Positions 1,060 through 62,266 of a stretch of 64,000 nucleotides of DNA are shown here, in pieces. The stretch is from Hygrocybe punicea. Taxonomy: Eukaryota; Basidiomycota; Agaricomycetes; Agaricales; Hygrophoraceae. The notes under the pieces are model-generated. The model ran no database searches. It worked only from the letters and a program-made list of their open reading frames with translations, and was not told where the DNA came from. How positions within the stretch are numbered: the first letter of the stretch is position 1; every line of letters begins with the position of its first letter. Both the position numbers and the translations under genes were made by a program. The stretch is from NCBI GenBank assembly GCA_963556145.1, contig OY744464.1, positions 7,601,508 through 7,665,507 of the forward strand, given 5' to 3'.

Positions 1060-4000
1060 CTACGCCCAACCGGCACCGACCACATACCGATATCCACCTC
1101 CATCATTCTCCACCCACAACTAAGACCTGACAAACCATCACGAAACTTTCGCAACACAAACTGGGACACCTTTCGCACCCACCTCGACACTCAACTATGA
1201 CAACACCCCCCTACAGCCCCCATTACCTCCCAACAACAACTAGACGACGCCATATCCACACTGACCAACGTACTACAGTCAACTATCAAAGCTGTAGTCC
1301 CCATTTCCACACCATGCCCGCACTCAAAACGATGGTGGACTCCGCAACTAAACCAGCTCAAACGAGATAAAAACAGGCTAAGTCGACTATCCTATAAGCA
1401 CCGAATAGACGCCACTCACCCCAGCCACGATGAACACAGGGCCGCACGCAACCTATACGGTAATGAAATCCTCAAAGCCAAAGAAAAGCACTGGTCAGCC
1501 TTCCTCAACGAAGCCAGCGACGACGACCTCTGGACGATTAACAAGTGTGTATCCAATCCCATCAGTGACAACCCCAGAGGAGACGGCGGCAAGTGTTCCA
1601 TCCCCACCTTGGAAATAATCCACCCGGACGGCCACATAACTTACGCAACGTCGAACGAAGACAAGAGCCGGGCCATCGCTAACTCCTTCTTTCCCCCCCC
1701 ACCTGAACACTCCTCGGTCCCAATAGACTACTTATACCCAGATCGAGTCCCCTACACGACACACATCTCCAAAGACCTTATCTTCAAACACCTCGCCAAA
1801 ATTCTCCCCTTCAAAGCCCCGGGCCCGGACGGTATCCCCAACATTGTACTCAAAGAATGCACAGCACTCATTTCGGACCACATCCACAACATCTTCAACG
1901 CCATTCTCACACTCAACATATATTACGCCCCATGGAAGGACTCCATCACCAGCGCGCTACGCAAACCGGATAAACCAAGATATGACATCCCCAAAGCCTA
2001 TCGCCCCATCGTATTACTCAATACCCTCCCAAAACTACTGACTTCTATCATCGCAGAAACCATAATGACCATGGTCGAAGAACACCAACTCCTACCCTCC
2101 CACCACTTCGGCGGGCGACCCGGACGAACCACTACCAACTCCATGCACGTCCTAATTCATCGCATCAAACATGCTTGGCGGAACAAAAGAGTAGCCACAA
2201 TCCTATTTTTGGATATCGAAGGGGCATTTCCGAACGGGGTCACGGAGCGGCTGCTCCACAACATGAGAAAAAGACGCATCCCCGAACCCATTATCCAACT
2301 TATCAACAACATCCTAACGGACCGCACAACCCACCTCGCCTTCGATGACTATATCTCCGGCCCGATCCTCCTCAAAAATGGCATCGGCCAAGGCGACCCG
2401 ATATCCATGATAATATATTTATTCTATAACGCTGACTTACTCGACATCCCCATAGGCAAACACGAACTCGCTGTGGCATTTGTAGACGATGCCGCCATAT
2501 ACGTAGAGGGCAAAAACTTCACGACAACCAACAGACTCATCAAAAACATCATGACAAAGCAAGACGGAGCCTTCACCTGGTCCAAGGACCACAATTCTAA
2601 ATTTGAAACCAGCAAATTCGCGCTGATAGACTTCTCACAGCACACCAACATTTTGAGGCCCCCACTCGCGCTCAACGACACCCTCATTAAACCTGTCAAG
2701 ACACATCGTTTCCTTGGCATCATCATGGACCAGCACCTCCGATGGCACGAACAGCGAGAACAAGCTATCGCCAAGACCACCAAATGGATCCATCTCTTTC
2801 GCAGAATAGCACGGCCCAAATCAGGCGTCCCCAGAAAGCTAATGCGACGGTTATATACGGCCGTGGCTATCCCAAAAATGACTTATGCAGCCGACGTTTG
2901 GTACACCCCGGTCCACAAGACGACAAACAGCACCCATAGAAAGGGCTCAGTCAGAGCGATGCGCGAGCTCACAAAAACCCAACGCCTGGCATCTATACCC
3001 ATCACTGGAGCGCTCAGAACTACTCCAAACGACCTACTTGATCTCCACGCTGGCATTCTGCCCGTCGACTTACTAATGCACAAAGTTTGTCACAGATCAG
3101 TCATCAGAATGGCATCCCTCCCCGCCTCACACCCACTACACGCTCTTATACGGCGTTGTGCGAAACACCTCGTCGCCAGACACAGATCCCCCCTCCACAC
3201 ACTCACCCACCTCTTCCATATCGACCCACACGACATAGAACCCATACGCCCAACGCACTCACATACCCCCCCCCCCCCTTTCCACACCTCCATACCCGAC
3301 TCCAGAGACAAATCCATAGAACAACATGACAACGACAACGCAGACATAAAAATATACACGGACGGCTCCACACTCGAAGGAGGCGTGGGCGCAGCGGCGG
3401 TTCTATATCGCAATGGACATACACAAGCCAGAACACTCCGCTACCACCTAGGACCCAGTGACTCTCACCACAACGTCGAGGCAGAAAACATAGCTGGCAC
3501 CCTCGCCTTACACTTACTAAGCCGTGAAATACTCCTACGTGACGTCTCCATTTACATTGATTGCCAACCGACAATACATGCACTAACCTCCACCAGAACA
3601 AGCCCTAAATCCGGTCAACACACACTAGACATCTTCCACAAAGCGGTCTGACGTCTCACCGACACCAACCACCTCCTCGTTATTACTATCAAATGGATAT
3701 CAAGCCACAGTGACGTCCCCGGGAACGAACAAGCCGACACAGAGGCCAAAGCAGCAGCGAGAGGAACTACCAGCCCATGACACTCCCTACCCCACGCCCT
3801 TCGACTCAAACCCCTGCCCTCCAACGCCTCGGCCCTCAAACAATCATTCAATAAGCAATTAATATTACAATGGAAGGACGCCTGGCAACGATCACCACGA
3901 TACACACGATTCACCCGTATCGACCCTGACTTCCCCTGTAACAATTTCCTTAAAACTACACTTGACTTAACTCGCCCCCAGACTAGTCTACTCACACAAA

Positions 4001-17693: not shown

Positions 17694-20437
17694 ATGGTCT
17701 ACCCCTGGGCTCAGACCGACCATTCATCCGCCCTTCTTGATTTCGTAGGGAATACTGTCTTCCGTCTTCTAGGTTTAGTTGGTATCCAGGCATCCTCGGC
17801 CTCCGCTAATGTCCCCGACTCTTCTACACTGCAAAAATGCCTTTATATCTCCACCTCCATGGGCTTATCCCTACTGGTATCCACCTGGCTCTTTTTCAAA
17901 ATCACTGGTGGCCTCTCCAATCCGAATATCAACCAGACATTGCCATTGGTAGGGGTCATCGGCCCCCTCCGGTTTGTCTTGCATTGCATTGCCCAGATGG
18001 CAGCGAGTGCCTTGGTCTTGGGATGGACACCAGGGCCGTTGGCTTCCAAGTGAGTGTCCAAGATCGGCTCTCTCCATTTGACTGCTCTCTCCATTCGACC
18101 GCTCACTAAGCCCGACTCAGCACGTTCTTGCAGCAAGGCGTGAATATATCGCAAGGCATCTTTATTGACACGTTCATGACTGCCGCTCTCGCAATTGCTG
18201 TGCTCGTGCTTGCTGCCGAGAAGACCGCCGAGACACCTTTCGCACCCCTTGCGCTACTTCTATCCATAATGGATTTGATATGGTCTTGGTGCGCATCAAT
18301 CATTGCAGCGGTGTGCATTACATACGCTTTCAAGACGTTTACGTTCAATGCTGCAGTGCGGGGCATACAATCCAAGCCAATCCAGAGACGTGTGGAATTG
18401 ACCACCGAAGAATCAGCGAAGGTGAAAAGGTATGGAGAAGAAACAATTACCTCCGAACTGGACTGGCTCAAGGAGCTCTACTTCAAGCTGCACAATCTGG
18501 AACGCTTCTATGATGACATTTTGCCAAATGTCGGATCAATCTTGTGTGATATGATTTCGGAAGCTCTGGATGATGCAATGCTACGAGAAAGTCATGGCAT
18601 TCTTGACATTGAAACCTACTCTCGACAAAGTCTCGAGCAATTTCTGCGAGGCGAATATGACGCTTGCATGCGAAATTGGGAGAAGTACAATTTGAGAAGA
18701 GACGCTGGAGGTGATCGGGAACTGTTTATGAGCTGCGAAGACGCCTCCAATTCCATCAGACGTCTCGCGCCTCTGAAACTTGTCGACGGGGCGTGGCTGT
18801 CACACGTTAATAAAATCTCCACCCCAATTGAACTGCGCCAAGCGACGCAGAAAGCGTGGCAGATACTTTCGGAAGAACTGGGAGACGGCGATCTTCGCAA
18901 AAACCATGTCCACGTCTACAGCGAGCTCATTCGTGAGACCAGCGGGGCTTGTCCCGAACCACACTCACCCTTCTTCATCGAACCGCAGCACAACATGACG
19001 GACGTCCACGTCTGGAAAGCCGCTGTGGCCCAGCAGCTCATCTCTCTCTTACCCGACAAATTCATGCCGGAGATGCTTGGGTTCAACTTGCACTTCGAGG
19101 GTGTCGCGTTCGAAACTCTTGTCAGTTCCCGCGAGCTCGAGGAGCTCGGCTATAACCCGTCGTACTCTTTGTTGCACGTGTCAATCGACAATCCCCATTC
19201 CGGACACTCAGCTATCGCATTGGAGACCGTGACTGAGTACCTCGACTGCGTTGAACGAGAGTCGGGTGCGGAAGACCTCCAAATCGCTTGGAACCGCGTG
19301 CGAGCCGGCTACCTATTTTCCAAATACCTGAACGCAGCAACGGGTGAGCTTCGCAGTACCCCCGCTGCGGATTTGAGCCCGCGCGAAGAAGCGGTAATCA
19401 AAATCATCGCCGCCAAAGCCCGGGCGGCGCAAAAAATTCACTGCGGGAGCCGCATCATGATCGGCGGTCACCACATCAACCACTGGTTGGACACAGAGCG
19501 TCTTTGTGAGCGCATGTGGCAGACGCAATTTCTGCAAGCCCTCAGCAGCACCGGTCGCCTGGTCCGTAGAGGTCGCAGCGCGGACAGCAAGCTGGTCAAG
19601 GCGATCTCTTGGGGCGGCAAAATGTTCGGTTCGTTCACGGATCTCGAGGTGACAGCAATAAGGCAGTGGATAGACGCGCTGCCTCCGAAACAGGGCAAGA
19701 GTTACTTGACTTTCACCGGGTTACGCGCGGACGCGGCCGCATACGATCCTCGCACGGACAGCCGTTGTTGGACCAATGCCTTTTACCGCAAGACCCCGCT
19801 GATAGAGCAAGCCCTGCGTGACTCCAAAGATGCCACATTCCCTTTCAGTACGAGCATCAGCGACATGAAGGTCACACAACGCCTGAAACTGAGCAAGATG
19901 CTCCCGCTCTGGTTCGCCAGTCTCGGCCTTCTGGAGAACTTTGTCTCCGTGCCCTCTAAGGTTGCAAACGACCGCAGCTGCGCGATACTCAGGGTTCTAA
20001 GAGCACAGCACGGGTTGAGCGTCGAGACCGGAGGCGTCGGCGGCATGGACGAAGCTTTGCGGAGTGATCGAGTTGGTCTGATAGATATCGGTCTGGATTG
20101 GATGGAAAAAACTGGGCTGAAAAGACCACAGCGGGTGGATACTGTCCTTCAGGCTCCTGACGCTGCATTTGCACGAGAGTTGATCACTTTGGGGGTGCGA
20201 CCCGAAGAGCATGCTGAAGTATTGGTGGGTCTCAGCTGCGCCTTTGCGGAATTACATCAGGCCATGATCCCATTCGTGTCGCCGACGCATCGAGATGCTT
20301 TGCAACAGATAGCGATGAGAGAGCGACGTGGATTAGAGGAGTGGCTAGCTCATCTGCGAGGGATTACTGCTGACAGGTCGATGTTGTGCAAAGCATACAG
20401 TGCAGGAAAGTGGGAGATTGACACCTGTTTCGATTGA
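17694..20437 (+). CDS. Partial aquaporin fused to a haem-oxygenase-like iron enzyme, about 890 aa
   Basis: Exon 1 (17694-18049) and exon 2 (18121-20437) join through a 71-nt intron (GTGAGT..CTCAG). Residues 1-165 match a fungal aquaporin: membrane segments, the first pore loop GGLSNPNINQTLPLVG and the SQGIFIDTFMTAALA helix with its LAAEKT turn. About 50 residues including the second pore loop are missing. A last hydrophobic segment (WSWCASIIAAVCITYAF) leads directly into a soluble region. Residues about 250-560 resemble iron-containing redox enzymes of the haem-oxygenase-like fold: RLAPLKLVDGAWL, LGFNLHFEGVAFETL, SLLHVSIDNPHSGH. The last 330 residues are unassigned. The pore should not work as a water channel, and the enzyme may be membrane-tethered. 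Substrate unknown. Whether one transcript covers both halves is inferred from frame continuity. Confidence 0.7.
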
Positions 20438-21484: not shown

Positions 21485-24400
21485 ATGACCAGTCATGCAC
21501 ATTATGGTGCCAACTACTATGCGCCTATCCATGGGAGTAACATTGGCGGTACAGACAATGTTGTTAATATTTTCAACACTTACCAACCGCCGTGAGCTTT
21601 CGATGGCATTGCCATTTTCATCCACTGGTTCACTCACTGGCAGCCACAGTCTTGACTTTCAATTCCCACCAGCGGATAGAGCCTTATTGGATAGGCTTCC
21701 CCGTGTGAAAGGTGCTCGATGGGATTATATTGACCGCCCGGCCTGTTTGAAGGGGACCCGCATCGAAGAACTAAACAAATTGATAGATTGGATGGACAAC
21801 GAGGGAGAGCGTCGTATGTATGTGTTGACTGGATTGGCTGGGACCGGAAAAACTACGATTGCCAAAAGCACCGCCAATCTCGCCCAAGAGCGTCACATCC
21901 TCGGAGCGAGCTTTTTCTGTTCTCGTGCCTCGGACGAACGAAGTAACATGCAACTCATATTTCCCACCATTGCCTTCCAACTTTCGCACTACAGCTCTGA
22001 ATTCCGTGCCGAAGTTCTTAAGGTTATCATCAATGATCCGGACATCGGTTACTCCCCATTCGAGGAACAGCTGAAACAGTTGATAGTGAAGCCAATGCAG
22101 GGGGCTGTTGCGTCGATCTCGGCATCGTTCAAGCTGAAACTCGGCTTCTCTCGATCACTCTCGGACCAACATATAGCATCTCTAATTTTGCGCCCTCTCC
22201 GCTCATTAGCGACGTCTGCCGAGACGGTTCCAGAGTTCATCCAAATAATCCCTGATGTACAACAAGCCATAATTCTTCCATTGCAACTAATTGCGACCTC
22301 ACTTGGGAAGGGCAATGTGCTGCAGGAGACAAGGGTTAAAGAGAAGATAGTCAATGACATCGCAGCCATCATTGAATCAATCAAGAAAGACTGGCCTCTC
22401 GAACTCCTCCAGGATGTAATCGTGAAACCTGTACGCGATGTGGCTTTGATGGTGGAGGACTCTGGTTGTTCACCTCAAGCGTCCCAATCCGAATTCGAGG
22501 AACTTATTAACTCCCTCCGCAAGATCGCCATATTAGTCGAGGATCGGCTCGGCGAACAATTTCAGAATTCAATCGTTGTATCGACAAGGGAGATTATCGC
22601 TTCGGTCCAACAAGAATTTCGCAAAGGCCACATTTTAGCACATCATGAGTTCAATGACCAAGTTATCGAGCCAATACGGGGAATCATCGCATCGGCGTTG
22701 AAACAAGACCCGTCTCACCTGTTATCAGTCGAACACATTGAAGAGCCGTTGTACTCGGTTGTTTCGTCACTATGGAATAAATTGGACGTCAGTCCCTGGA
22801 TGCCAGACGTCCAACTTAACGATTTGGTTTTGAGTCCGTTACGGAAGATCGTCGAGAAGAAATATAGTTCTTCAATACGCGAACAACTCGTCAATCGGCA
22901 GAACGTTTCGAAAATATTACGGTCGGTCATTTCATTATTAGAGACCAGCCAAAGGACAGGTCGATCGCTATCAGATGAGGAATTCGGCTCATCGATCAAA
23001 GAATTTCTACAACAGATTAAACCTTTTGCGCGGCCAGTCATCGTCGTCGTCGACGCATTAGACGAATGCAAGGATTGGGAGACACCCGAGAAGTTCCTGT
23101 TGGCGTTCGCACGGCACATCCATTCTACCCCCTTTCTTAAAGTATTTGCCACCAGCCGTCCAGAGTTCTCCACACGGCTCGCCCTTCAGGATTCGTCAGT
23201 GGACCGTCTGACAGATGTTCTTATTCTTCATGAGGTCGATCCAGTTCGAGTTGAAGCCGACATCAGATTGTTTCTCCGTGTCCGCTTGGCGGATATAGCA
23301 ACAAAGCGTAGACGCGACAACTTGGAACTTCCAAATCTGTGGCCACCTGAAGATCTTCTAGACAAACTCGTTGAAAAGGCTTCTGGCCTGTTCATTTTTG
23401 CATTCACCATTTGTAGGTTCCTAGAGTCACCCGGTGACCTTCGGGAACAGATCGAGTTCATAGCAAATATTACCACGAACACCGAAGAGGGACGCCTTGG
23501 AATCGATGAACTCTATCAGAAAGTCATTGACACCGCTCTCGACCAGTTCGTTGACCGAAGACAAGTGTCCCAATGTGGCCTCGTTGTTGCTGCCATCGTG
23601 CTGTTTTTTGATCCTCTTTCCTTGTCTGATCTTGCAAATGTGTTAGGCATAAATCCTGGCCGTATCCGCGGTGTCTTGAGGGATCTACATTCTGTTCTCG
23701 TGGTCCCATCGCACGATAGGGGCATCGTCCACACTTTCCACGCATCATTCCACGACTTTGTGACAGATAAGACGAGGTATACTGGCGAAATCTATGTATT
23801 TCGGGAACAACGGCATATGGAAATCACGATATTTCTACTCCAACAGATGATGGCAGGGCTGAAAAAGAACATCTGCCAACTTGATGGTTCCAAGCTGAAC
23901 ACAGAGGTACAGGACCTCCACGAACGAAGGGATGCATCTATCAGCCAACCGCTTGCTTACGCATGTCGATATTGGGCAGAACATCTCTCTCATGTCTCGC
24001 CAACCGAGGGCAGTAAAGAGACGATGTTGATTGGCATGCTCGACACCCTCATAAAAACCAAGCTTTTATATTGGATCGAGTTGCTCAGTCTTCTGGGTGA
24101 GATAAAGTTTGCGGATACATCCCTTGCCAGGGTCAGAAAATGGTTTTCGGTACGTCATCAAGCAGAGAGTTGAACAATACGTGATATTGACAAGAGCTAC
24201 AGGTTTTACGGCGTCCCGACATCAACAACCTACTAGGCGACGTGCACCGATTTGTGATCGATCATTCTGAGGGAATTGGGGACGGTGCTCTCCACGTCTA
24301 TGACTCTGCTCTACTTTTTACACCCCGAAACACGACATTGTTCAAAACCTACCGACATGAATTCCAAACTTCAGTAGGCGTGTTAAGCAGTGTCCAGATA

Positions 24401-48250: not shown

Positions 48251-49165
48251 CGGTATGACTTGCTACTGCGCAATGCGCATGCCGTCTTGCTACAAGTAGT
48301 GGATTGATGAAGGCCTATCTGCCCCATCTTCATTTATGCCTACGACATTCATGGTTACCTAGTTTTGTAAAATGTAGTCGATCAGATATAAGGCAATGCG
48401 ATTGACCTCACCTAGTTTTTTGTCGACGCGTCATGGTAGTTTGTTTGGTGGAGTTTGATTTACTTGCCAGCACACCGTCGCAAAAAATGAAAGTCTTCAA
48501 TTTTATATGGGCTATTCCAGCCTCTGTGACTCTCTTCGCTCTATTGCAATTCTTCCTATCATATGTGTTGAGCAGTGGCCTGTTTCTGCCCCACCTCTAT
48601 GAGGCTTGGATTGTAGAGTAGGTCCTTTTTCTTCTGATATTTGCATTTGCTTCAAGTCCGTCCACAGAAACCCTGTATATTGGCTTCGCCGGTTCTCTCC
48701 CATGTGTGTTTTTTATTGGTATCCCAGTGATATTCTATTTACCTTGTTTGACTTCAGACAATCGCCTTGCTTTGCTGGGATGTCGACATATAGTTTGATT
48801 GCATCGCTTGTTCGATTTGACCATGTCCCAATGGTGAGTTATCTTGCTTTTATTAATGTCGTGCTTTATATACTGATTAGTATCAGTATTCCCAATGGAT
48901 GCACGAAGAATGCCGTCAATCACTTGACTTGTCAATTGAGTATGTTTTTTTTATGTCGACCTTTATATGAGTTTGTTGATTCTTGGTAGTGAAAATCCCT
49001 CGCTGCTATATGGTAATCATATCTCAATAGCTCCTGACTTGTTTACAACCATGCGATGGTTGTATTCTCATTTGTGTGTTTCGTTATTGTCTTATTTTAT
49101 GTTTTGTTTGCTAATTAATCATTTGCAGTGAAAATACTACGCTACTATGTGATCATCACTTCCCA

Positions 49166-52100
49166 ATGTCATCCGACGTGGTTGGGTCCACTCACCCATT
49201 TTATTCCCATTTATCGTGTAAGGAGTTTCCTTACTCCGACGGAAAGCATTTGTATGTTCCCTCCCACTCTAGTCTAGGTGAATATATACGGCTCCCCAAA
49301 GTAGACCGTGCCCCAATGGTTGGTGTACTCTTTTTTAAATACTTCAACTTCTCACATGTTCTGCAGATTGCTACTTTCTTTGTGACGAGTCACATGTCAT
49401 CTTCGTGCGCAATGCACTTGTCATTTGCCCGCAACAGTTGTCTGTTGTCAACCATGTCCAATGTCTTTAAAATGTCCAATGTCTTTAAATCATCCACTGT
49501 TGTTAATGTCATACGCAGTTTGTCTTGGGTTCACCATATACTGATAGAGCTATACTATTTGTTGGTACACATTTATGCCATGCCAAAACATAATATTTTG
49601 GCCATATGTACTGCTCTATCTCTTTATATGTGTCGGAATCAAATGTTACGTCATGATTTCTATGCAATGATTGCTCTCTCAAATATGCCATTGAAAATTA
49701 CAAAGCTGTGGAAGCATGCTCCGAATGGTGTTGTACGTGCTTCATCTGTGCTGCATTTCTATGTCATTGGCCTTCATCTTCCAGTATGTCTTGATTTACA
49801 CTGGTTATTTATTATTCATGACTTAGTTTCAGTGTTAAAGTGTCTTGTGTTTTGCACTGTCATTTTTCAACCCACTTCCTGGTTCTTGTCTTGTTTGGAG
49901 TTGCATCAATTACACAACCCCACTATATTTAAAGATGTTAATAAACATGTGCATATAACCTCAAAGCTTGTGGGTGGTGGGAGATCTTATCTATTTCCTG
50001 CACAAGCTTTACATCCATATCTTGAAAATAGTGGTGATAATATTGATCCTGAGTCATTTTATCATTTTGTTGATCACATTAATAAGGCAGACAAAAATAT
50101 TTATCCCATTGATAAGTTTGTATATACAAGAATACCTTTGCTTAACATTGTCCCTCATATATCTGGTAAAATGGTACATAAGATTGCACATGTGCACAAT
50201 ATTTCTATTGGCTCTCATGTACTCAAAAAGGATATGTTGGCATATTTTGAAAACCATGACTGTCTCAATTGTATGCATCATTTTAGCATATTCTCCTTTG
50301 CAAAATCTCAGACAGTAAAAAGACAACGGTGCATACAGCTTACTTCAAAAGAACCTCAAGTATGCGATTTCCCTCCACCTCCATTGTCTCAAAATCTGAC
50401 TCATAATGTTATATCAGACTTTTGCAATGATTCAAAACCCAACAGATTTGAAGAGTCAGGGTGTGCTGTGTGTGGGGAATTGGTGCCTTTGAGTAATCTG
50501 AGTCGCTTGAAAAGTGTAAAAGGTATGCTCAATATCTTAGACGCTCCAGGTGTGACAAGAATTGAGCGTAAAGATTCTTCAGAGAGAATCAGAGAATTCA
50601 AAGGTCCTGTTCTAGACTATCAATGTGATAAAATTTGTGGGGAATGTCGAAGTTGTATTAGGAAAGGAAAGATTCCAAAGCTTGCTCTGGCCAGAGGTCT
50701 TTGGCTTGGTTGTGTTCCAAAAGAACTCTTGGATCTTCGATTTGTTGAAAAACTTCTTGTAGCTCGCATACGACACAATTGTTGTTTCGTGCAGGTTGCC
50801 TCAGGCATGAGAAAAATGACATCACATGTTGTTGCATTTCAATCACCCATTCCAAAAGTGTACCAGGCCCTACCACCCCCTGCTGAGGACCTTGATGATG
50901 TTCTGGCTATTTTGTTCACAGGACCATGTAAGCCAACAGCAAAAGACTTTGAACGCACTCCACTGCTGGTGCGCAGGAACTATGTTTCAAGAGCACTTGA
51001 ATGGTTAAAAGTTAATCACATTGACTACCATGACTTGGATATATCTTATGATAACCTTGCACAATACCCTGAAGATAGTCCACCTGTCTCAGTTGAGTAT
51101 CGTCATAAAGAAACAAATAAAGTACCAGAGGGGACAAGTGTATTTGACAATGAATGTGAAGATGGTACTGAAGATGGTGATTGTCCTTTTGTTGTTCATG
51201 GACTGACTAGTGACTCTCTTAATACCCAAACAATAAACTCTCTCAAGGGTATTGCACTTCGACATCTGAACAGTGGTGGTAAGGTGTTGGCAGTTGGTCA
51301 ATCATCTACATATGAGTCAATCTATAAAAACCCAGAGCTTTATCCACAAATGTTCCCATGGTTATTTCCATATGGATTAGGTGGCATAGGTTCAACATCT
51401 TTGTCTGATGCTGAGCATAAGCGACATCTACTTATGTATCATGATAAACGCTTTCAGACAGACATATACTTTCCTTTTGTTGCTTTTAGTCATGCTCAAA
51501 TCAAGGCAAGCACAGCAAGTGGATATTTACTTGCAGACAAATCAAAATTCAAGGATATCACCAATCGTTTATTAAATGTTAACCAAGATGTATTGCATTC
51601 TTTGGCAAAAAGGCTCTCAGATGGAGAAGCTGTAAAACCAGTTAACCAAGAAGAGAAAGATTGTTATCAGATTGTACAAGACTTGGATCATGTAGGAGCT
51701 AAAGTAAGTGGATCTATAACAAGTAAGAAGTATATGAGAAATGAAATTTGGTCTCTGATTGCATATTGTGGTGCTCCCTCATGGTATATTACACTATCTC
51801 CAGCTGATGTTAAGCATCCTATTTGTTTATACTTTGCTGATACAAAGGAAACTTTTAATCCAACAATTAAATCACATGATGAGCGAATCCGTATGATTGC
51901 CAAAAATCCAGTGGCAGGAGCAAGATTCTTTGACTTCATGGTTAATCTTTTTATTAAGCATGTTTTAGGTGTGAATACAGATCATCCTGGAATATATGGA
52001 GAAACTTCAGCTTATTATGGCACAGTTGAACAACAAGGTCGTCTTACTTTGCATCTTCACATCTTGATTTGGATTCGTGGATGTCTGAGTCCACAAGAAA

Positions 52101-55100
52101 TTAGAAAGAAAATATTGGATCCTTCATCAGATTTTCAGAGAAAGATCATTGAGTATCTGGAAAGCACACATATTGGAGAATTTCTTACAGGAACACAAAA
52201 TGAAGTGTTTGAAAAAATTGATGAAGTTTCACAATCATCCAATTACATAGATCCAACACTGATATTGCCTAAGGCACCCCCAAAGCCTTGTTCAAAGCCA
52301 TGTGGCACTTGTTCCAAATGTCAAGCAGTGAGGAAGTGGGATCATAAGTTTAATTTTGAAGTTGATGATATTTTGGCCAAGTCTAATATACATCGCTGCA
52401 CTACCAACAGAAATAAAGATGGATCTCAAAATAAAAATCGTCAATATGTTGGATGTTTGGATAACCAGTGGGGCAAGTGTAAAGCTCGTTTTCCTCGACC
52501 AGTGTTCAACAAAACTGAAGTGGATCCTGAAACAGGTGCTCTTAACATGAAAAAAAAAGAACCTATGATAAATACTGTTACACCATTGCTTACCTATTTG
52601 TGTCGCTCAAACACAGATGTAACAAGTCTAAAATCTGGAACTGCCATTAAAGGTGTAATTCTTTATGTTTCAGATTACATTACAAAAGTATGTTTAAAAA
52701 CACATGTTATCTTTGATACAATTCGTGCTATGTTTCAGAGGAACAGTGAGATGATTGGAGGCACTGATACACAAAAGGAAAAAGCTCGCAGACTTATGAC
52801 AAAAATTGTTAATAGTCTGAGTGCAAAGATGGAATTTGGTGCCCCAATGATATGCATGTACCTCTTACGTAACCCTGACCATTATACAAACTATCAATTT
52901 GTTCCATTCTATTGGCAGAGCTATGTTCATGAGGCACGTATAATTTGGAATCCAAAAGATACCAGAGATAATGCTGAAAAGGTAGCATTGATTAAACGCC
53001 AAGGTTGTATTATTGGTCTGTCTCATGTTTATGATTATATATATCGACCTCTTGAGCTAGAGTATATGTGCCTATATGACTGGGTAAGTCGTTGTAAACG
53101 TGAGAAGTTTCCTGAGTCAAAGAAAAAAACTAACAAGTGTTATGAAACACCTGTCAGTGTTGATGATGAGAGTACTCATTATGATACTTCTTGTGATTTA
53201 CCAAGTGAAAAAGATGTATCTGATGTGGATAGCCAATATAATCATAGTGTCTTATGCACAGGTATTTTGAATACTAAAAAGGCATGTATCTCAGAAGAAG
53301 CAAACAACAAAGAAACAAAAACTAATATCTCTTCAGGCTTTTTCTCTTTCCTTGATGCTCATCCACTTCACACTTCACATGGAACACGATGTGTGAAGGA
53401 GAGCAGTGCACGTGTTCCTACTTTTACAGGTGCTATATTGCCACGCTGTGATCAAGGTGATCGTGAATATTATTGCTCTACAATGCTTGCATTATTTCGA
53501 CCATGGCGGACTGGACATAACTTGAAAACAGTTGTTCAATCATGGGATGAATCATTTTTGTCATATGAATTTAGTAAGAGACAATTGGAACTTATCGAAA
53601 ATTTCAATATTCGATATGAATGTCTTGATGCTAGAGATGATTTTCATGCCCAGCTTCGCAAAGGATCAGCAAATTTTCCAAGTTGGCTCAAGGCTGATGA
53701 AGCTACATTGAATGATGATATTGAATTAGAAGATGTGATTGATGATGAAGCATTTCCAAATCTATGTGAAGAGATTGATGTAGATTTAAAAGCAGTAGGA
53801 AAGCGTGAAAAGAAACGTCAACTTGACATGGCAACAATACGGTCTGTGGTAACACAAACTGGTTGGACTGAGGTTGTGCCAGCAAATTTGAGTGTTCAGC
53901 CTCCTCCTCCACCTACAATTATCCAGACTGGAACTCAATGGAAAGCTGCTGTGCTGAAGAAACGACAAGATCTGCTCAACCTCCATGCAGAAAACTTACC
54001 AAGTGTTGCCAATCCTGAGAAAATTTTACATAGATCCTATCACAACAATGTTAGAATTATTGATAAGACATATTTTGAAAAAAAATATTATTCAGTAAAA
54101 TCTAAATTAGAAATAGAGAATGTTGTTGAAGAATTTCATCTCAATCAAGAGCAAATTAGAGCTTTTCATATTGTTTCACATCATGCTTCTACAGAAACTT
54201 CTGATCAATTAAAGATGTACATTGGTGGTATGGGTGGCACAGGAAAAACCCAGGTATTGAAGGCATTGGTGCAATTTTTCAATAAAAGAAATGAAACACA
54301 TCGCTTCATCATTGTTGCACCTACTGGAACAGCTGCTGCTCTTCTAGCAGGATCCACTTATCATTATGTATTTGGCTTAAATGAGAAAAGTGATGAACAT
54401 TTGTCAGCCAAACAGCTTTCTCAGTTAAGGTTGCGATTGCAAGGTGTTGACTATATTTTTTTTGATGAAGTGTCTATGTTATCTTGTCAAGACATGTATC
54501 GTATTAGTGTGAGGATGGCAAAAATTTTTAATGAAACAGAAATGCCATGGGGTGGAAAAAATATGATATTTGCAGGAGACTTTGCACAGTTGCCACCAGC
54601 AATAGGACATGAAAATGCATCTTTGTATAGTAGAACTGTTGGCTCTCACGCTACTAGCCGTTTTGATCAAGAAGCTGCAATTGGTAAAGCATTATGGCAC
54701 CAAGTTACAACTGTTGTCATATTACGAGAAAACATGAGACAAAGAAGTCAAACTAAAGAAGATTCTCAGTTAAGACAAGCTCTTACAAACATGCGATATA
54801 AAGCATGCACTCTTGATGATATCATATTTCTACGGTCACGAATTTCAAGCAACATACCTGGTCGTGCTTCAGTGAAAGACAATGAGTTTAGGCAAGTTTC
54901 AATAATCACAAATTTTAATATTCATAAGGATGAGATTAATTGCTTGGGTTCATTGAGATTTTCTAAGGAGACTTCTCAGCCATTGGTTGACTTTTTTTCT
55001 GAAGATTCAATTAGCAGTTCCTATGAGAAGAAAAAATGCAAAAACTCAGCTTGTTCTAGAATCAATAAGGTTACAACACTATCTAAGAATGTTCAGAGCA

Positions 55101-56812
55101 TCATTTGGAATCAACCACATAGCTCAAATGCAAAATGCATACCTGGAAAACTTTCTTTGTGTGTTGGGATGCCAATCATGATTCGGAACAATAGTGCAAC
55201 AGAACTGTGTATAACTCGTGGTCAAGAAGGTACTATATATGGTTGGCAGCATGAGATTGGTTCACTGGGTCAGAGAGTTTTGGACACCTTGTTTGTAAAG
55301 CTTATCAATCCTCCACAGACTGTTCAATTTGATGGGCTTCCAGAGAATGTTGTTCCAATAACAAAAACCACCAATACTGTAGATTGTGCACTACCAGATG
55401 ATTCTTCAATCACTATTTCTCGTAGTCAAGTGGAGGTTCTTCCCAACTTTTCGATGACAGATTACTCTTCTCAAGGTAAGATAAGGCCATATAATGTAGT
55501 GAACCTTAACAACAGCCAGTCTCATCATTCATATTATACTGCTTTGTCACGGAGTTCTTCTGCATCTGGAACTATCATTCTTCAGGGTTTTGATGCAAGA
55601 AAGATCACTGGAGGTGCTTCAGGTGCATTACGTCAAGAATTTCGTGAACTAGAACTTTTAGATGATATAGTTCGTTTAAGATACAATAGCAAGTTACCAA
55701 TGTCAGTCACAGGTGATCGCAGGAATACACTAATCAAATCTTTTAGAGAATGGAAAGGTGAACACTATGTACCTGAAAAAGTCCATAAAGCCATCCGCTG
55801 GAATATGTCTGATAAATTTCATGTGGATTCAGATGAGAATGATAGTCAGTGGAAAATGTTAGACAATGTGAAGAAATTTCCAGCAAAAGGAACATCTCTA
55901 ATTCAGAATGTTCAACCAACAGTTACTAAAAGAAAAATTAGTGGGTCTTGTGTTGCACCACAGAAAAAGAGGTCAAAGACATGTAGCACTATTCTGGATT
56001 CTCAAGCAGCATCTATACATATTCCTGATGGTATATGTTGGAGCAATAACAGTTGTGCATATGATTCCACAATAATTATATTTTATGCTATCTGGCATGA
56101 AAGTCAAACCGGACAACTAACATCTTTTAGAAATGTGAATAACCAGTTTGTAGAATTAATGGAAGATGGGTTTTTGAAATATATCAATGGTGATTATTCA
56201 TTGGAAGACATACGGGAATATCTGAGGCGTTGCTTATATCGTTACGCTCCTGGGAACTTCCCTTGGGGATTACTTACTAGTGTTCACACACTCTTGGATT
56301 ATCTATTACAAACTGATGTCCCCATACTTGAGTCTTCTGTATTTTGCCCTCAACGACACCCTGTGCCAAGACACCAAATAACAACCCATAAATGCTGCAT
56401 TGATATTGGAATAGTTGGTTGTGAATCCATACAAGATGGAATTGATCTCTTTGTGACTCCTCTAAGTTCAAAGTGTCCTATATGTAATGATACGCTACTC
56501 AGAAAGTTTAAATTTGTAAGCTCACCTCAGCTATTTGCATTTACAATTCCTCCTGGAACAACAACGTTGGACCATGATCTTGCAATACCAGTGGAGGGTC
56601 AATTGCAACCATGTAATTATAATCTTAGAGGTGTTATATATTTTGGAGATGTTCATTTCACATCTCGCATTGTCACTACAACAAAACATGTCTGGTTTCA
56701 TGATGGTATTGTAACTGGCAGATCTATGGAATATGAAGGCAAGTTGGATGATATAGTTCTTAATACATGCAACTCCAAGCAAGCATGTGTTGCTATATAT
56801 GTTATTGTATAA
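49166..56812 (+). CDS. Helitron Rep/helicase with C-terminal ubiquitin-protease-like domain, 2548 aa
   Basis: The first 260 or so residues are poorly ordered and may include retained introns. A Cys-rich region follows (GCAVCGELVPLSNLSRL; CDKICGECRSCIRKGKIPKLALARGLWLG). The Helitron-like N domain precedes the rolling-circle nuclease with HUH residues in LTLHLHILIW (H963, H965) and the tyrosine pair YVSDY (Y1167, Y1171). A Pif1-type helicase has Walker A GGMGGTGKTQ (about 1687), Walker B DYIFFDEVSML, FAGDFAQLPPA and the late motif YTALSRSSS. From about 2285, ICWSNNSCAYDST resembles a ubiquitin-specific protease Cys box, followed by a CPIC zinc-finger-like part and KHVWFHDG as a possible His box. 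No stop or shift across 7.6 kb suggests recent activity. Rep nicks and joins one strand; the helicase unwinds donor DNA. Confidence 0.85.
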   Translation: MSSDVVGSTHPFYSHLSCKEFPYSDGKHLYVPSHSSLGEYIRLPKVDRAPMVGVLFFKYFNFSHVLQIATFFVTSHMSSSCAMHLSFARNSCLLSTMSNVFKMSNVFKSSTVVNVIRSLSWVHHILIELYYLLVHIYAMPKHNILAICTALSLYMCRNQMLRHDFYAMIALSNMPLKITKLWKHAPNGVVRASSVLHFYVIGLHLPVCLDLHWLFIIHDLVSVLKCLVFCTVIFQPTSWFLSCLELHQLHNPTIFKDVNKHVHITSKLVGGGRSYLFPAQALHPYLENSGDNIDPESFYHFVDHINKADKNIYPIDKFVYTRIPLLNIVPHISGKMVHKIAHVHNISIGSHVLKKDMLAYFENHDCLNCMHHFSIFSFAKSQTVKRQRCIQLTSKEPQVCDFPPPPLSQNLTHNVISDFCNDSKPNRFEESGCAVCGELVPLSNLSRLKSVKGMLNILDAPGVTRIERKDSSERIREFKGPVLDYQCDKICGECRSCIRKGKIPKLALARGLWLGCVPKELLDLRFVEKLLVARIRHNCCFVQVASGMRKMTSHVVAFQSPIPKVYQALPPPAEDLDDVLAILFTGPCKPTAKDFERTPLLVRRNYVSRALEWLKVNHIDYHDLDISYDNLAQYPEDSPPVSVEYRHKETNKVPEGTSVFDNECEDGTEDGDCPFVVHGLTSDSLNTQTINSLKGIALRHLNSGGKVLAVGQSSTYESIYKNPELYPQMFPWLFPYGLGGIGSTSLSDAEHKRHLLMYHDKRFQTDIYFPFVAFSHAQIKASTASGYLLADKSKFKDITNRLLNVNQDVLHSLAKRLSDGEAVKPVNQEEKDCYQIVQDLDHVGAKVSGSITSKKYMRNEIWSLIAYCGAPSWYITLSPADVKHPICLYFADTKETFNPTIKSHDERIRMIAKNPVAGARFFDFMVNLFIKHVLGVNTDHPGIYGETSAYYGTVEQQGRLTLHLHILIWIRGCLSPQEIRKKILDPSSDFQRKIIEYLESTHIGEFLTGTQNEVFEKIDEVSQSSNYIDPTLILPKAPPKPCSKPCGTCSKCQAVRKWDHKFNFEVDDILAKSNIHRCTTNRNKDGSQNKNRQYVGCLDNQWGKCKARFPRPVFNKTEVDPETGALNMKKKEPMINTVTPLLTYLCRSNTDVTSLKSGTAIKGVILYVSDYITKVCLKTHVIFDTIRAMFQRNSEMIGGTDTQKEKARRLMTKIVNSLSAKMEFGAPMICMYLLRNPDHYTNYQFVPFYWQSYVHEARIIWNPKDTRDNAEKVALIKRQGCIIGLSHVYDYIYRPLELEYMCLYDWVSRCKREKFPESKKKTNKCYETPVSVDDESTHYDTSCDLPSEKDVSDVDSQYNHSVLCTGILNTKKACISEEANNKETKTNISSGFFSFLDAHPLHTSHGTRCVKESSARVPTFTGAILPRCDQGDREYYCSTMLALFRPWRTGHNLKTVVQSWDESFLSYEFSKRQLELIENFNIRYECLDARDDFHAQLRKGSANFPSWLKADEATLNDDIELEDVIDDEAFPNLCEEIDVDLKAVGKREKKRQLDMATIRSVVTQTGWTEVVPANLSVQPPPPPTIIQTGTQWKAAVLKKRQDLLNLHAENLPSVANPEKILHRSYHNNVRIIDKTYFEKKYYSVKSKLEIENVVEEFHLNQEQIRAFHIVSHHASTETSDQLKMYIGGMGGTGKTQVLKALVQFFNKRNETHRFIIVAPTGTAAALLAGSTYHYVFGLNEKSDEHLSAKQLSQLRLRLQGVDYIFFDEVSMLSCQDMYRISVRMAKIFNETEMPWGGKNMIFAGDFAQLPPAIGHENASLYSRTVGSHATSRFDQEAAIGKALWHQVTTVVILRENMRQRSQTKEDSQLRQALTNMRYKACTLDDIIFLRSRISSNIPGRASVKDNEFRQVSIITNFNIHKDEINCLGSLRFSKETSQPLVDFFSEDSISSSYEKKKCKNSACSRINKVTTLSKNVQSIIWNQPHSSNAKCIPGKLSLCVGMPIMIRNNSATELCITRGQEGTIYGWQHEIGSLGQRVLDTLFVKLINPPQTVQFDGLPENVVPITKTTNTVDCALPDDSSITISRSQVEVLPNFSMTDYSSQGKIRPYNVVNLNNSQSHHSYYTALSRSSSASGTIILQGFDARKITGGASGALRQEFRELELLDDIVRLRYNSKLPMSVTGDRRNTLIKSFREWKGEHYVPEKVHKAIRWNMSDKFHVDSDENDSQWKMLDNVKKFPAKGTSLIQNVQPTVTKRKISGSCVAPQKKRSKTCSTILDSQAASIHIPDGICWSNNSCAYDSTIIIFYAIWHESQTGQLTSFRNVNNQFVELMEDGFLKYINGDYSLEDIREYLRRCLYRYAPGNFPWGLLTSVHTLLDYLLQTDVPILESSVFCPQRHPVPRHQITTHKCCIDIGIVGCESIQDGIDLFVTPLSSKCPICNDTLLRKFKFVSSPQLFAFTIPPGTTTLDHDLAIPVEGQLQPCNYNLRGVIYFGDVHFTSRIVTTTKHVWFHDGIVTGRSMEYEGKLDDIVLNTCNSKQACVAIYVIV

Positions 56813-56870: not shown

Positions 56871-58680
56871 CACAAGTTCAGGGAGGTCACGGTGGGCATA
56901 TGCAATCCTACCTGCGAACGGAATGTAAGTGACTACATGGATTGGTTAGTATATACCGTCGGGTAACGAGTGTATACGAGCCTCACATCGAATGGATGAT
57001 GTCGGGGTTACCATGTGCCAGTGATGCAAACAGCCTCGCAATTTCGTCTGCTTATTGAAGACGCAACGCTGACCGAATCGGACCGAACAACGTTTCCAGC
57101 ATTTTTCCTGTGGCGTTGTTGTGTTTGACGATCAAGGCCCTCGCCCGAAGTATGACCGATTGAGAGGGAGGTAAGGAAAACGTGGACAAGGCGAGAGCTG
57201 AAAAAAACCGTCGGCACCATTTCCGCATAAGACGCGTCAAACACAAACAATATTTATAGTTTACAAACAAAAAGAGTACATGGAGGGACCAAGACAACGG
57301 CATCATCACACCTATCCCCAATACCGTCATCAGCCCGTTCTGTCGCACATAGCACAGGTGTTGGTGTTGTTGTACACTGTAGTCCAACGTCCACATATCC
57401 TGCAATAACTCTGGTGACAAGGTCCGCTACCATGGCCGTCGCTCATCGGGTCAGAGGTCCCATAGAAGTGATCAGAGATCGCGTCTCCTATGAAGCAGTG
57501 TCCAAAAACCTTCAGCAATCATTCGGCCTGGAACATTTCGCGGAAGCTTGCCTGCTTTCAAGTTGTCCACATCAGGGACTGTACGACCGAAGACAACGTT
57601 ATCGGCGACAATGCGAATATCAGGCACAGAGAAGTCTGAAGGCATGGCAACTGGGAATCTCGCGCTATAAATGATTGTTAGGTCGATGCAAATCCTGCAA
57701 GGGTGGAGGACCAGCCTGGTTGACCAGAAGCCTGAGGTCCTTTGTAAACTGGCAGGTGTGGTTCGGTGGATGGCGAAGTGCCGAAATGAATAGACAAGGT
57801 AAGCTATTTAACATTTCCTGTGATCTAATAGCCAGATCGTAGATCTTATCGCTCTCATCTGGGAGCATCCGCTCTTTAGCGCGATCGAAGTGTGTGGCAT
57901 ATCACAGGACCCCAGGACGGTGAACAGAAATGCACCGAGAATGGCACCGTGACCCTCGAGAAATCATTCATTTCAGCGATCGGACCGTGGGAGATTTGCC
58001 TGGGTGAGAGATTGCTCATTTGGCGAAGCCGGTTCTCGAACAACGCCGTCCTGGGACGGGGCTACGAGCGTACAATTCCACAACTCCTTCCAGCAGCATG
58101 GACTTCTTGATGCAATACTAGCTAGGCGGACAGTTCTGCAACTTATGTCAACGAGCGCGACCCAGAGAAGGAGACCGCCAACTACATCAGCCTGACTCAT
58201 ATCTCTTACCACACGAGGAGCTAATCCATGGTAAGCTACAAAACCAATTTCCCGTCGTCGTTCGAATCACCAAACATGTTCCTGAGTACCTTCAGTTCAT
58301 TGTCACCTGCCGTCATTTTACAGGCGCAAAATCGCTCTAACCGGTTATATATAACAACATCAACATTATCGACTATCATCATTGTCCATGTATGAAGCCC
58401 AGGAACCGAGCATAGATTTGTTGAGACTCACGAAAGCTCTTGCTCCACCCACGTCCTTGACATCGGAGCTACACGCTTGCCGCTCAGGATTTCACTCAGG
58501 GCATCAGATTAATTTACCCAAAATTGATCTCGTCAACAGCCGCAGCGTCCGATTATTATTCAGGTTCGCGTACATTTTACTGAAGCGATGAAGGTAAGAC
58601 TTGCGCCACAGAAAACTATGGAAGATTCGTGTTAACGGCATAGAGTGATGGACTGGCTTATCAAGATAGCCCACATCCCA
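56871..58680 (-). other. Coding-like region, probably a minus-strand gene or remnant
   Basis: CpG-rich sequence with plausible minus-strand exon pieces: QADVVGGLLLWVALVDIS (about 58195), ATHFDRAKERMLPDESDKIYDLAIRS (about 57900-57815), MPSDFSVPDIRIVADNVVFGRTVPDVDNLKAGKLP (about 57640-57540) and MVADLVTRVIAGYVDVGLQ (about 57430-57375). Splice signals exist (for example GTAGC / TTGCAG near 57425-57390), but no continuous model could be built and no domain was recognised. Part of it resembles 17415-17515. It sits immediately upstream of the borosin gene, so a role there is possible but unsupported. Confidence 0.3.
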
Positions 58681-58800: not shown

Positions 58801-60121
58801 ATGTCTACTGCTCAACCCAAACGAGGCCAGCTTATCATCGTCGGATCTGGCATAAGCAGCGTGGGCCAGCTGACGCTGCAAGCCGTTGCTCACATTGAAC
58901 AAGCCGACGTGGTGTTCTACGTGCTTAGCGATCCAGCCACTGAGGCCTACATTCAAGAGAAGAATTCCAACTGCGTTGACCTATACAAGTACTACGACAA
59001 CGGAAAAGACAGGGTTGACACGTATATCCAGATGTCAGAGGTGAGCCAGCATTAGTAGTACTTGATGTGATTTAGGATTGATCTGATTTTGTCACGATCT
59101 AGGTGATGCTCAGCCGTGTGCGCAAGGGGGAACATGTCGTTGGCGTCTTTTACGGTCACCCCGGATACTTCGTTTCGCCTTCTCATCGTGCCATCGACAG
59201 TGCCCGTGAGGAGGGTTACATCGCGAAAATGCTCCCAGGCATCTCAGCAGAGGATTGCCTCTATGCAGATCTTAACATCGACCCTTCGTCCTTGGGATGC
59301 GTCACGTATGAGGCAACGGACTTACTGGTGATGAATAGGGTCATTATACCTTCAAGTCACTTGATTTTATGCCAAGTTGGCGCTATTGGGGTCTTGGATT
59401 TCAAGTTCAGCGGTTTTAATGTGCAAGGGCTTCTCTTTTCACTTGATCGCTTCACCGGGTCTTGCTGACTGACTTGCGCGTTCAAATCAGAACCACAATT
59501 TCCACCTCCTCGTTGATCGGCTTGAGAAAGAATACGGTGCCGAGCATACAGTCGTCCATTACGTCGCCGCTGTCCTTCCCATGGAGAGGCCCATCATGGA
59601 CAAATATTCGATCGCAGAATTGCGCGATCCTCGCGTCCAAGAAAAGATAAATACGATCTCGACGTTCTATGTCCCTCCCAAGACGAAAGAGACAGTGCCT
59701 GACACGTCTGTTTTGAACAACATGGGCATTGCCAAGCCTGATAAAACCGAGGAGGAAAGGGAACGGTCAGTCATTGCACAGATCTCTTCGCATGTCCCGT
59801 CTGCGGACTATAAGCCGTGGGAGGTATCCGGTGTGGTAAAGAAGCTGGTGATTAAATTGGCCTCGGACCCGAAAGAGCTTGCGGCATATGAACACGATCC
59901 GAACTCCTACGTCGAATCTATCACTGGACTCTCGCCAACGGAAAAGGTAGCCTTAGCATCAGGCGACGCGAATCAAATCAAGTTGATCATGAAAGGTCAA
60001 TATGATTTGCCATTGTTGCCAGCCACAGTCCTTGACTTTTGATCATATCGCAGGCGAAGTGCTTCCTCCTCTCATGGTTCTGGCGCCACCTCCTCTCGTT
60101 GTAGTAATAGTTGTTGTCTGA
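58801..60121 (+). CDS. Borosin precursor: alpha-N-methyltransferase fused to its own core peptide, about 376 aa
   Basis: Exons 58801-59040, 59103-59420, 59491-59995 and 60054-60121; introns of 62, 70 and 58 nt. Residues 1-250 form the SAM-dependent methyltransferase fold of the OphMA family: [39 protein letters not shown] (Y65, R71 and Y75 match the OphMA catalytic Tyr/Arg/Tyr), [30 protein letters not shown] and [17 protein letters not shown] helical clasp follows ([28 protein letters not shown]). Splicing 59996-60053 removes the stop at 60042 and adds a C-terminus ending [11 protein letters not shown], a hydrophobic core-like run with no follower. In this family the enzyme methylates backbone amides of its own C-terminus, which is then cut out and cyclised. 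The last donor is GTCAAT, weak but also seen in the neighbouring MYND gene. Shorter than OphMA (about 417 aa). Product and activity unknown. Confidence 0.88.
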
Positions 60122-60350
60122 GACGTGGTTTGAGTGATTCGAATTCACAGGGTGCACTATATTATACGACACACTATGTCGGCCTTCGTTTGACCGAAGC
60201 GAACTAAAAGAGCATGACAGACAGGATAATTTTGAATAGTATCCAATCAGATTGTCTGCAGCAAAGCAAGCCTCGACATTCCGAGTGCATGTCTCCTATG
60301 CATCAAGCTCTCGTGCGAGTTTTGAAGTAATATAAGACCTGTGCCTCACG

Positions 60351-62266
60351 CTAACGAGCAAGCCCTCCCTCGTTCGCCAATCTCTCCAATTTCAGTTTGC
60401 AAATTAGTTTATGCTCTTGCCAGTCACTGTAAACCGTGTACCCTGTGCAATTAGCGCTGTAAATAAACTTGACCTCAAATCATCAAACCTTTTCTGACAA
60501 TCAACGCTGCAATATCCAGCCTTTTTGCAAGCTGTACACTGCGCAGTACGCTTAGTGTCGCAACCCCTTCGAGTACAGGCGCCTGCCAAGACACACGCTC
60601 TCTCAATGTTGTAGAAGAGCTGCCAGCAAAGCAGATCGGAGACTCCATCTACGGCGGGAGATGTCTGTTTATTGACATTGCGAGACAGATCTACAAGAGC
60701 ACGGAGTGTGCAGGCGCGAGGGAACTGTGGACGTAGAAGGGGTACAACTGCAGGGTTTGTCTCCATAGTCGTACTGATACTGGAAAAAATGCGTGAGAGA
60801 TCCCCAACAAAATCATTCGAAACTGAACAATGCGGATGGTTAGTTATTGGGTGGAAAATGTAGTGATTGTGTTGACGGACAGGTCAGTTGCTCGCTGGCA
60901 CAAGAAGGAACGACAGCATCCAGCATGCCAAACAAGTCAGCCGCAACCCAGCGAAGAAGTAAATTCGCACACTCCTCCGAAGCACCCGCGCTACGGGAGT
61001 GTTCGAGATGCATAGTGTTTGCTGTGTGATGTGTAACGGGAAGGATGATGCCAATAAAATGCGCGCTAATCCCTTGACGGGGTCGTTCATTCACAACTCG
61101 GCGAGCTATGGAGAACATGCTGGTCCATAATGACAGAGAGTCACGATGTGCATTGATTAGTTCAGCGTAAAGTGGATGTGTTCCTCGCACGGCTATGCGC
61201 CAAATGGTGCTGAGTAAAGATACTTCAACAAAACCATCAGCGCCGAGGTATTGATTGAGATGGGCAGCAATGGCGGAAACAAAATTTCCGATGGAACCCG
61301 CGCCCTGAATGATACGAATGAATGTCGATGTTGTAAATGGACGAGTGATCATATGTGGGCGTCGAGAATCGGTATCCCCATCGACGACGGTGGACAAGGT
61401 CAAAGTATTGTGTACAATATCTGGATTGCCGCTTGAAAATGTCCAATACCGGCTTACAAGCGAAATCGTATGATCGCGTTCGTTATCCAGAACACTTGAA
61501 GGTAGTCAGCAAGATTGCCGAAAATTCCGGGATCCAAGACTAGTTACCAGGCGAATGATGGATCGGCTAGCAAAACCCGACTAAAAAGTTTGGGGGGAGT
61601 GGCCCGCTCGAATGTATACGGCTTCCCTGGTTTGAGCGAGTGTTCCGGGTCCGTCAAGAGCTGTCCCTCAGTGTTAGTGTTGCGTCGCAAGACCAACCGG
61701 GACTTACGCGGATCACCATCATGGACCAATATCTCTTCAGCACAGTGATGACCTTCACATCTGTCACATCTGGAGGATTCGCAAATTTAATCGCTGCGTG
61801 GAGGAGGACAGTCATTGGCATAAAAAAGGATGAGTGTAACTGGCCTAGGTGATAAGCGTGATATCGTTCATAAATAATAAAAGGTCCTACGTTCCGGACA
61901 TCGTTAGATCCTGACGGAAGAATACTCAGGTAATTCTTCAATTTGGTTTTGAGTACGTTGCCGCACAGCACGACTGCCACATTGGCGTCGACCAGACGCC
62001 GCCACCTTTGACCTCTCTCGATTGCGGCTGTATCGACGGCAGCTAAAGCTGGGTAAAAGTCCTGAGCGCTACAGTTCAAATTTTCGCAAACCACCCGTGA
62101 ATTTGGTATTTGGGCGACTTACTGCTAATGTATCACCCCACTGGTTTGGTCGATCGTCAAATCCTAGAGCAAGCGCATGGACAACACGAGATGGATTGGA
62201 ACTGAGGAGCCCATTCCATAATCGAACGTGTTCGAGGTTGACGGTCACAATCTCACTGACTTGCAT
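60351..62266 (-). CDS. MYND zinc-finger protein
   Basis: Six exons: 62266-62123, 62061-61708, 61660-61548, 61494 to about 60870, about 60780-60489 and 60426-60351, all joining in phase. It starts MQVSEIVTVNLEHVRLWNGLL. The long middle is helical without a named domain (armadillo-like composition: FIRIIQGAGSIGNFVSAIAAHL, SLLSTIWRIAVRGTHPLY). The C-terminus is a complete MYND finger formed only after the last intron is removed: C..GC...C..C....YCSVDCQK joined to SDWQEHKLIC. MYND fingers bind proline-rich partners; the specific role here is unknown. It is convergent with the borosin gene, 230 bp apart end to end. The reading frame appears intact. Confidence 0.72.

Follow-up and report, generated by a model that had tools for sequence, protein, structure and literature searches.

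The window, by which we mean the whole stretch of 64,000 nucleotides that was analysed (C6:7601508-7665507 of a 92.2-Mb genome in 42 contigs), contains a borosin gene that we modelled in four exons at 58801-60121 on the forward strand, with a spliced product of 376 residues. The introns, the relatives and Helitron/KDZ-type elements point to a fungal genome. Exon 1 (58801-59040) starts with the ATG at 58801, a start based on homology as well as on the gene model, and is followed by intron 1 (59041-59102, 62 nt, GTGAGC...CTAG), at the place where the relatives P0082 and P0116 read through. Exon 2 (59103-59420) carries methyltransferase domain according to Pfam. After intron 2 (59421-59490, 70 nt, GTGCAA...TCAG), into which several relatives appear to read with a final Q before NxNF, exon 3 (59491-59995) was assigned the end of the methyltransferase domain, a shortened linker and a clasp ending in MK, on the basis of the gene model, homology to solved structures and the alignment of relatives.

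Intron 3 (59996-60053, 58 nt, phase 1, GTCAAT...GCAG) lies between the clasp and the core; its GT occupies 59996-59997, its AG ends at 60053 and a Gly codon is split. The original prediction had proposed this intron, with a CTTGAC about 20 nt ahead of the acceptor, and had argued that its removal restores the frame and adds 21 codons with a Val/Ile-rich end. All of this was borne out by the gene model: GT and AG are in place in phase 1, the branch-like CTTGAC was read at 60031-60036 with its A 18 nt before the final intron base, and exon 4 (60054-60121, 68 nt) consists of the remainder of the split Gly codon, 21 codons and the TGA at 60119-60121. The putative N-methylated core LVVVIVVV (60095-60118), whose boundary we placed from the codons and the tails of relatives, directly follows PPP, and 14 residues separate it from MK. 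A whole-genome search with the start pattern of exon 4 matched this place alone. When 59996-60053 is kept, a 369-residue protein results, in which the TGA at 60040-60042 comes into use as it does in no other form; the predicted stop at 60042 is thus at the correct coordinate. The further claim that the unspliced form has no core-like tail was overstated, because its retained 15-residue tail is itself hydrophobic.

Among GT or GC donors at 59985-60009 and AG ends at 60020-60059, a V/I tail is given only by the donor at 59996 together with an acceptor at 60053 or 60059. The AG at 60058-60059 is also in frame and would yield a protein two residues shorter (374 aa). We consider use of this second acceptor extremely improbable, as 60053 is the first AG past the branch-like site and the GGC formed at the 60053 junction resembles the G-first codon behind the Glu or Asp that spliced relatives show after MK (see below); the V/I core would be the same either way.

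A fused borosin precursor and its relatives

The spliced protein matched TP_methylase (PF00590) with an E-value of 7.2e-17 in Pfam, and a search against solved structures aligned residues 2-355 with dbOphMA (E 4.1e-121) and residues 3-355 with OphMA (E 8.6e-121), both matches stopping at the split glycine of the exon 3/4 junction. The dbOphMA alignment also takes in the predicted helical clasp, with the linker in front of it shortened. A catalytic spacing pattern, built on SonM residues from the relevant passages of PMC8429565 and on KchMA residues from those of PMC11395268 (Y..Y.{5}R...Y.{21}Y), was found at residues 62-97 (Y62, Y65, R71, Y75 and Y97), the same as in OphMA. This exact Tyr/Arg pattern occurs in 64 of the 114 listed relatives that exceed 330 aa and in one of 20 MroMA-like rows, the first Tyr pattern being missing in the other 19, and is therefore not universal. 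In the spliced form only, a hydrophobic V/I-rich C-terminal tail is present on the same polypeptide. The domain, the active-site positions, the clasp and the tail together support the assignment of the gene, from its sequence, as a putative fused fungal borosin precursor.

Among the best 120 of 3692 relatives, the closest were the metagenome proteins P0001 (60% identity) and P0002 (56%), and named fungal proteins, including OphMA, dbOphMA and GymMA1, reached 49–52% (rows P0003-P0012). A quick 68-sequence tree placed the window protein beside P0021 and a clade of 24 rows that includes the intron-bearing relatives (SH-aLRT 84), and this group was split from the OphMA-like and MroMA-like rows with an SH-aLRT of 88. 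Its exact place is unsure because its end branch is long (0.75) and it falls in no starred set. Between the methyltransferase domain and the clasp, within exon 3, about 23 alignment columns are missing, which correspond to the YPxxxW region of the relatives.

OphMA and dbOphMA (P0005 and P0004; PDB 5n0o and 6mjf), the omphalotin and dendrothelin precursors, share with the window protein 50% identity over 94% of its length, the domain order, the catalytic pattern and a fused C-terminal substrate, but they belong to a separate clade and have a follower peptide, whereas the window gene has its stop directly after VVVIVVV. GymMA1, the gymnopeptide precursor (P0012), is likewise similar (49% identity, V/A-rich core) but groups with OphMA and continues with SLNDLTDSVN after its core, where the window protein ends at the V run. 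The original prediction had likened the tail to omphalotin- and gymnopeptide-type cores; descent does not support that kinship, since the gene falls in a separate half of the tree (with modest support), outside the OphMA/GymMA clade, has no follower, and a prolyl oligopeptidase (POP) gene was not found nearby. MroMA1 of Mycena rosella (P0050, PDB 7twk) is also a fused borosin with a hydrophobic C-terminal stretch, but it lies in another clade and has a longer linker. P0009 of Coprinopsis marcescibilis, in the same half of the tree, resembles the window protein in its short tail (EGGVPMNHAQLTFFFIISNL) and differs in its core (51% identity).

Two observations on other tails were made in passing. 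ND[LMT] follows the core in P0012, P0010, P0137 and P0141 (SLNDLT, AVNDMT, SINDMI and SINDMT), and P0022, of the intron-bearing clade, has GVNDTT, so that these tails possibly contain a follower signal common to several clades. The tail of P0028 (Astraeus odoratus) consists after the clasp of tandem SFDEKAVLLQ-like units and may represent a multi-core borosin.

The best candidates of a genome search included one paralog, on another contig (C40:399797-401131, reverse strand), with 57% and 40% identity by part; it encodes another borosin precursor, which belongs to the MroMA-like clade and has the core-like tail VVTPAFVLLVLEVLI. Its two introns correspond in position to introns 1 and 2 and are apparently of the GC-AG type (GCGGGT, 51 nt; GCGAGT, 69 nt), an unusual situation in that both introns of one gene are non-GT. 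The paralog was discarded as a witness for intron 3, as its clasp runs into the tail unbroken by a boundary intron.

The clasp/core junction in the clade

Nine exon-3 pieces were aligned, giving 39 matches, and since many of the matching ORFs begin or end inside introns, we took these relatives to be unspliced genomic contigs. Twenty-three of the 39 are genomic-type ORFs of the window gene's clade that reach the junction, and with P0112 and P0113 the set comes to 25; P0131, P0153, P0154 and P0157 are outside the tree and were placed in the clade by likeness. Left out were the spliced P0022, P0133 with its broken frame, P0155, P0158 and P0159 (junction not reached or not aligned), P0151 (Coprinopsis-like) and ten rows of OphMA-like or other groups. 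After the final MK (or MR) of the clasp, all 25 ORFs have a residue compatible with xGT (Gly in 23, Arg in two), and [G/R][K/R] is present in 22 of them, as is expected when reading into a GTAAR donor. In the control groups an xGT-compatible residue was found in two of 16 OphMA-like and six of 20 MroMA-like rows, and [GRSC][KR] in none of these 36, a count that excludes the C40 paralog (which reads ST). The donors of the relatives are deduced here from amino acids rather than DNA.

P0001, P0002 and P0022 are spliced at the other junctions that they cover, from which we infer that they derive from cDNA, and they read E, E and D, respectively, after MK. Comparison with close relatives from different loci shows what is absent from them. 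In P0125, GKTISFTPSNYDFTFNYIA separates MK from DNTEGVFVPPIFLLVVIID, and exactly GKTISFTPSNYDFTFNYIA is lacking in P0022; P0136 has GKLSPSSSCHYAIKLHDIT ahead of EGHEAICTQAPQLWITAYLVLVA, and P0001 is without GKLSPSSSCHYAIKLHDIT; P0145 has GKPFVSAYKKFPNSCDYIA ahead of EGY, where P0002 reads MK-EGY, the tails diverging thereafter. Each insert corresponds by eye to 19 codons (57 nt). In P0134, the core exon of P0002 can be encoded in another frame at 18 of 18 residues, with an implied intron of 62 nt and a joint-frame score of 11.7, compared with 4.2 for the best of 100 shuffles. P0152 (14 of 18 residues, 65 nt implied) and P0142 (13 of 18, 62 nt) also scored above their shuffles in this test; P0138 did not. 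The intron thus seems to vary in length (57, 58, 62 and perhaps 65 nt) at a constant place and phase, as would suit an intron that is spliced out rather than an extension of the reading frame.

The metagenome sequences P0001, P0002 and P0022 and their unspliced counterparts P0136, P0134 and P0125 thus resemble the window gene in having a phase-1 intron deduced between clasp and core, and differ from it in intron length (57 or 62 nt as deduced), in their tails and in their full linker. The OphMA-like P0143 and P0144 differ in that their tail is unbroken across the junction, though their heads look like intron read-in and suggest that they are genomic. P0151, which is close to P0009, reads LK-GM, as if into a GTATG donor, where P0009 reads LK-EG, a sequence difference hinting that the intron may be older still. 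We conclude that intron 3 is very probably real and is shared across a clade of borosins distinct from the omphalotin/gymnopeptide and MroMA-like groups. The original prediction had named comparison with other fungal borosin C-termini as a check, and the same place and phase deduced across the clade agree with its placement of a V/I-rich tail on a final exon downstream of an intron.

As a chance control, we collected all phase-1 GT...AG pseudo-introns of 50–75 nt on both strands of 154 kb of the contig, excluding the locus, which yielded 12233 tails of 12–60 residues. A run of eight V/I/L/M residues occurred in 35 of the 12233 tails, seven tails reached a V+I+L share of 13/22 or more, and one tail combined the two. 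That the V/I-rich end of exon 4 arose by chance is unlikely, not impossible, and the comparison with relatives gives the stronger support for intron 3.

The usual fungal donor is GTRNGT, from which the GTCAAT of intron 3 departs; P0113, the sole relative among the 25 to read GQ, would have the same GTCAR start. This weak donor, together with a frame that is open to the stop at 60042 and a retained tail that contains L, P, V and A, could mean that intron 3 usually stays in the transcript or has a dead donor, and that the gene makes a 369-aa methyltransferase with the hydrophobic tail, or nothing, as its substrate. We regard this as very unlikely. The tails of spliced members of the clade are longer (31, 37 and 44 residues after MK), and exon 4 stays in frame to a V/I-rich end of a sort rarely produced by chance. 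Furthermore, in the passages of PMC8429565 on SonA a linker of eight residues (54-61) precedes the core, so that a 15-residue tail would leave little to modify.

Predicted product and processing, and surroundings of the gene

Taken as a whole, the locus is best explained as a borosin whose substrate lies on its own 68-nt last exon and is joined to the enzyme by splicing of the 58-nt phase-1 intron, an explanation that we hold with considerable confidence. The protein would dimerise and each chain would thread the LVVVIVVV tail of its partner through the active site, where successive backbone amides of the tail would be methylated; a protease, possibly cutting after PPP, would then free a short, multiply N-methylated peptide. 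This scheme is drawn by analogy with OphMA, in which a chain has its tail methylated by the active site of another; the same arrangement is described for SonM in PMC8429565.

The part of PMC12235650 concerned with OphP describes macrocyclisation of unrelated test peptides whose P1 residue is MeGly, Pro or MeAla, but not of those with Val or MeVal there. By analogy, an OphP-like macrocyclisation of the V run seems doubtful, and we do not predict it because there is neither a follower nor Gly/Ala at the end. The same P1 preference, and the position of PPP in front of an LVVVIVVV that ends the protein, would fit a core made of the segment up to the prolines (e.g. LMVLAPPP) with LVVVIVVV as a follower cut by prolyl oligopeptidase. 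Such a division of the tail is unlikely, given that proline has no amide hydrogen for methylation and that other fungal members (e.g. P0035, P0042 and P0046) end straight in V/I/L runs.

A whole-genome profile search for POP with PF00326 and PF02897 gave no match near the gene, and those to S9_N were confined to a locus on the same contig at a distance of about 4.7 Mb. Searching the ORFs of that POP locus by tblastn against the window, extended by 30 kb on its upstream and 60 kb on its downstream side, returned nothing at 1e-3, in a search that had no positive control, covered a stretch with 100 N and could miss an intron-rich gene. Elsewhere in the genome, C41:3293714-3303658 (reverse strand) contains two peptidase S9 matches of identical score about 9.3 kb apart, which looks like a recent tandem duplication.

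For the large Helitron helicase ORF upstream of the gene (49115-56812, forward strand, 2565 aa), one copy, on C7, shows 100% identity across 280 bp, which suggests that the element was active recently, at some 1.9 kb from the borosin gene. Carriage of the borosin gene by this Helitron was rejected, as the part that aligns with its other copies stops near 56877 and leaves about 1.9 kb up to the ATG. Pfam also identified, on the forward strand, a reverse transcriptase ORF (1201-3647) with a weak RNase H match under its cut-off, a large ORF with a Haem_oxygenas_2 domain (18110-20434) and another with NPHP3_N/NACHT-like ATPase domains (21489-24170). On the reverse strand, an ORF at 60407-60883 has a MYND-like Cys pattern by eye (CVLAGACTRRGCDTKRTAQCTACKKAGYCSVDCQK) and no Pfam match at 0.001, and just past the right end of the window lies an ORF with CxC5 and CxC6 clusters, which are KDZ transposase-associated (L020:2-2056, Pfam). 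A tRNA scan of the window found no tRNA genes.

Some of these features would suit a decaying relic, in which the splice site drifts, the linker has been shortened and the product is no longer made: the gene is the one member of its clade among the best candidates in the genome, it has a long branch and the linker deletion of about 23 columns, no clustered POP was found, and Helitron and KDZ-associated ORFs surround it. Decay is nevertheless improbable in our view, with the four-exon frame open, the catalytic pattern intact at five of five positions and the splice layout common to the relatives.

Reading borosin products from genomic sequence

Within the open-access literature, a scope outside which the founding papers of 2017–2019 fall, no report was found of borosins with an intron between clasp and core, and the intron and exon passages of PMC9233826, PMC9258550, PMC9769878 and PMC7725599 deal with other matters. 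For the present gene, the prediction is a C-terminal tryptic peptide of 2249.384 Da when unmodified, plus 14.016 Da per methyl; LVVVIVVV by itself would have a mass of 838.589 Da as a linear and 820.579 Da as a cyclic peptide before methylation.

A more speculative idea, to which we give little credence, is that the clade's last exon forms a substrate cassette whose joining is regulated; retention would then leave a methyltransferase without substrate or, with an open 57-nt intron, a linker longer by 19 residues. If this were true, splicing would set whether, and in what form, a self-modifying enzyme carries its own product.

A borosin product is read directly off the C-terminus of its precursor. 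As the core of this clade lies behind the clasp/core intron, annotation unaware of the intron would break off shortly behind the enzyme and leave it with no product. Of the 25 genomic-type ORFs, 15 end at most 20 residues past the MK of the clasp, and an in-frame run to a core-like tail was seen by eye in only six (P0112, P0113, P0124, P0125, P0136 and P0145). The rule of a phase-1 G|GT one base past the MK codons of the clasp would make the hidden cores of such 'orphan' methyltransferases readable.
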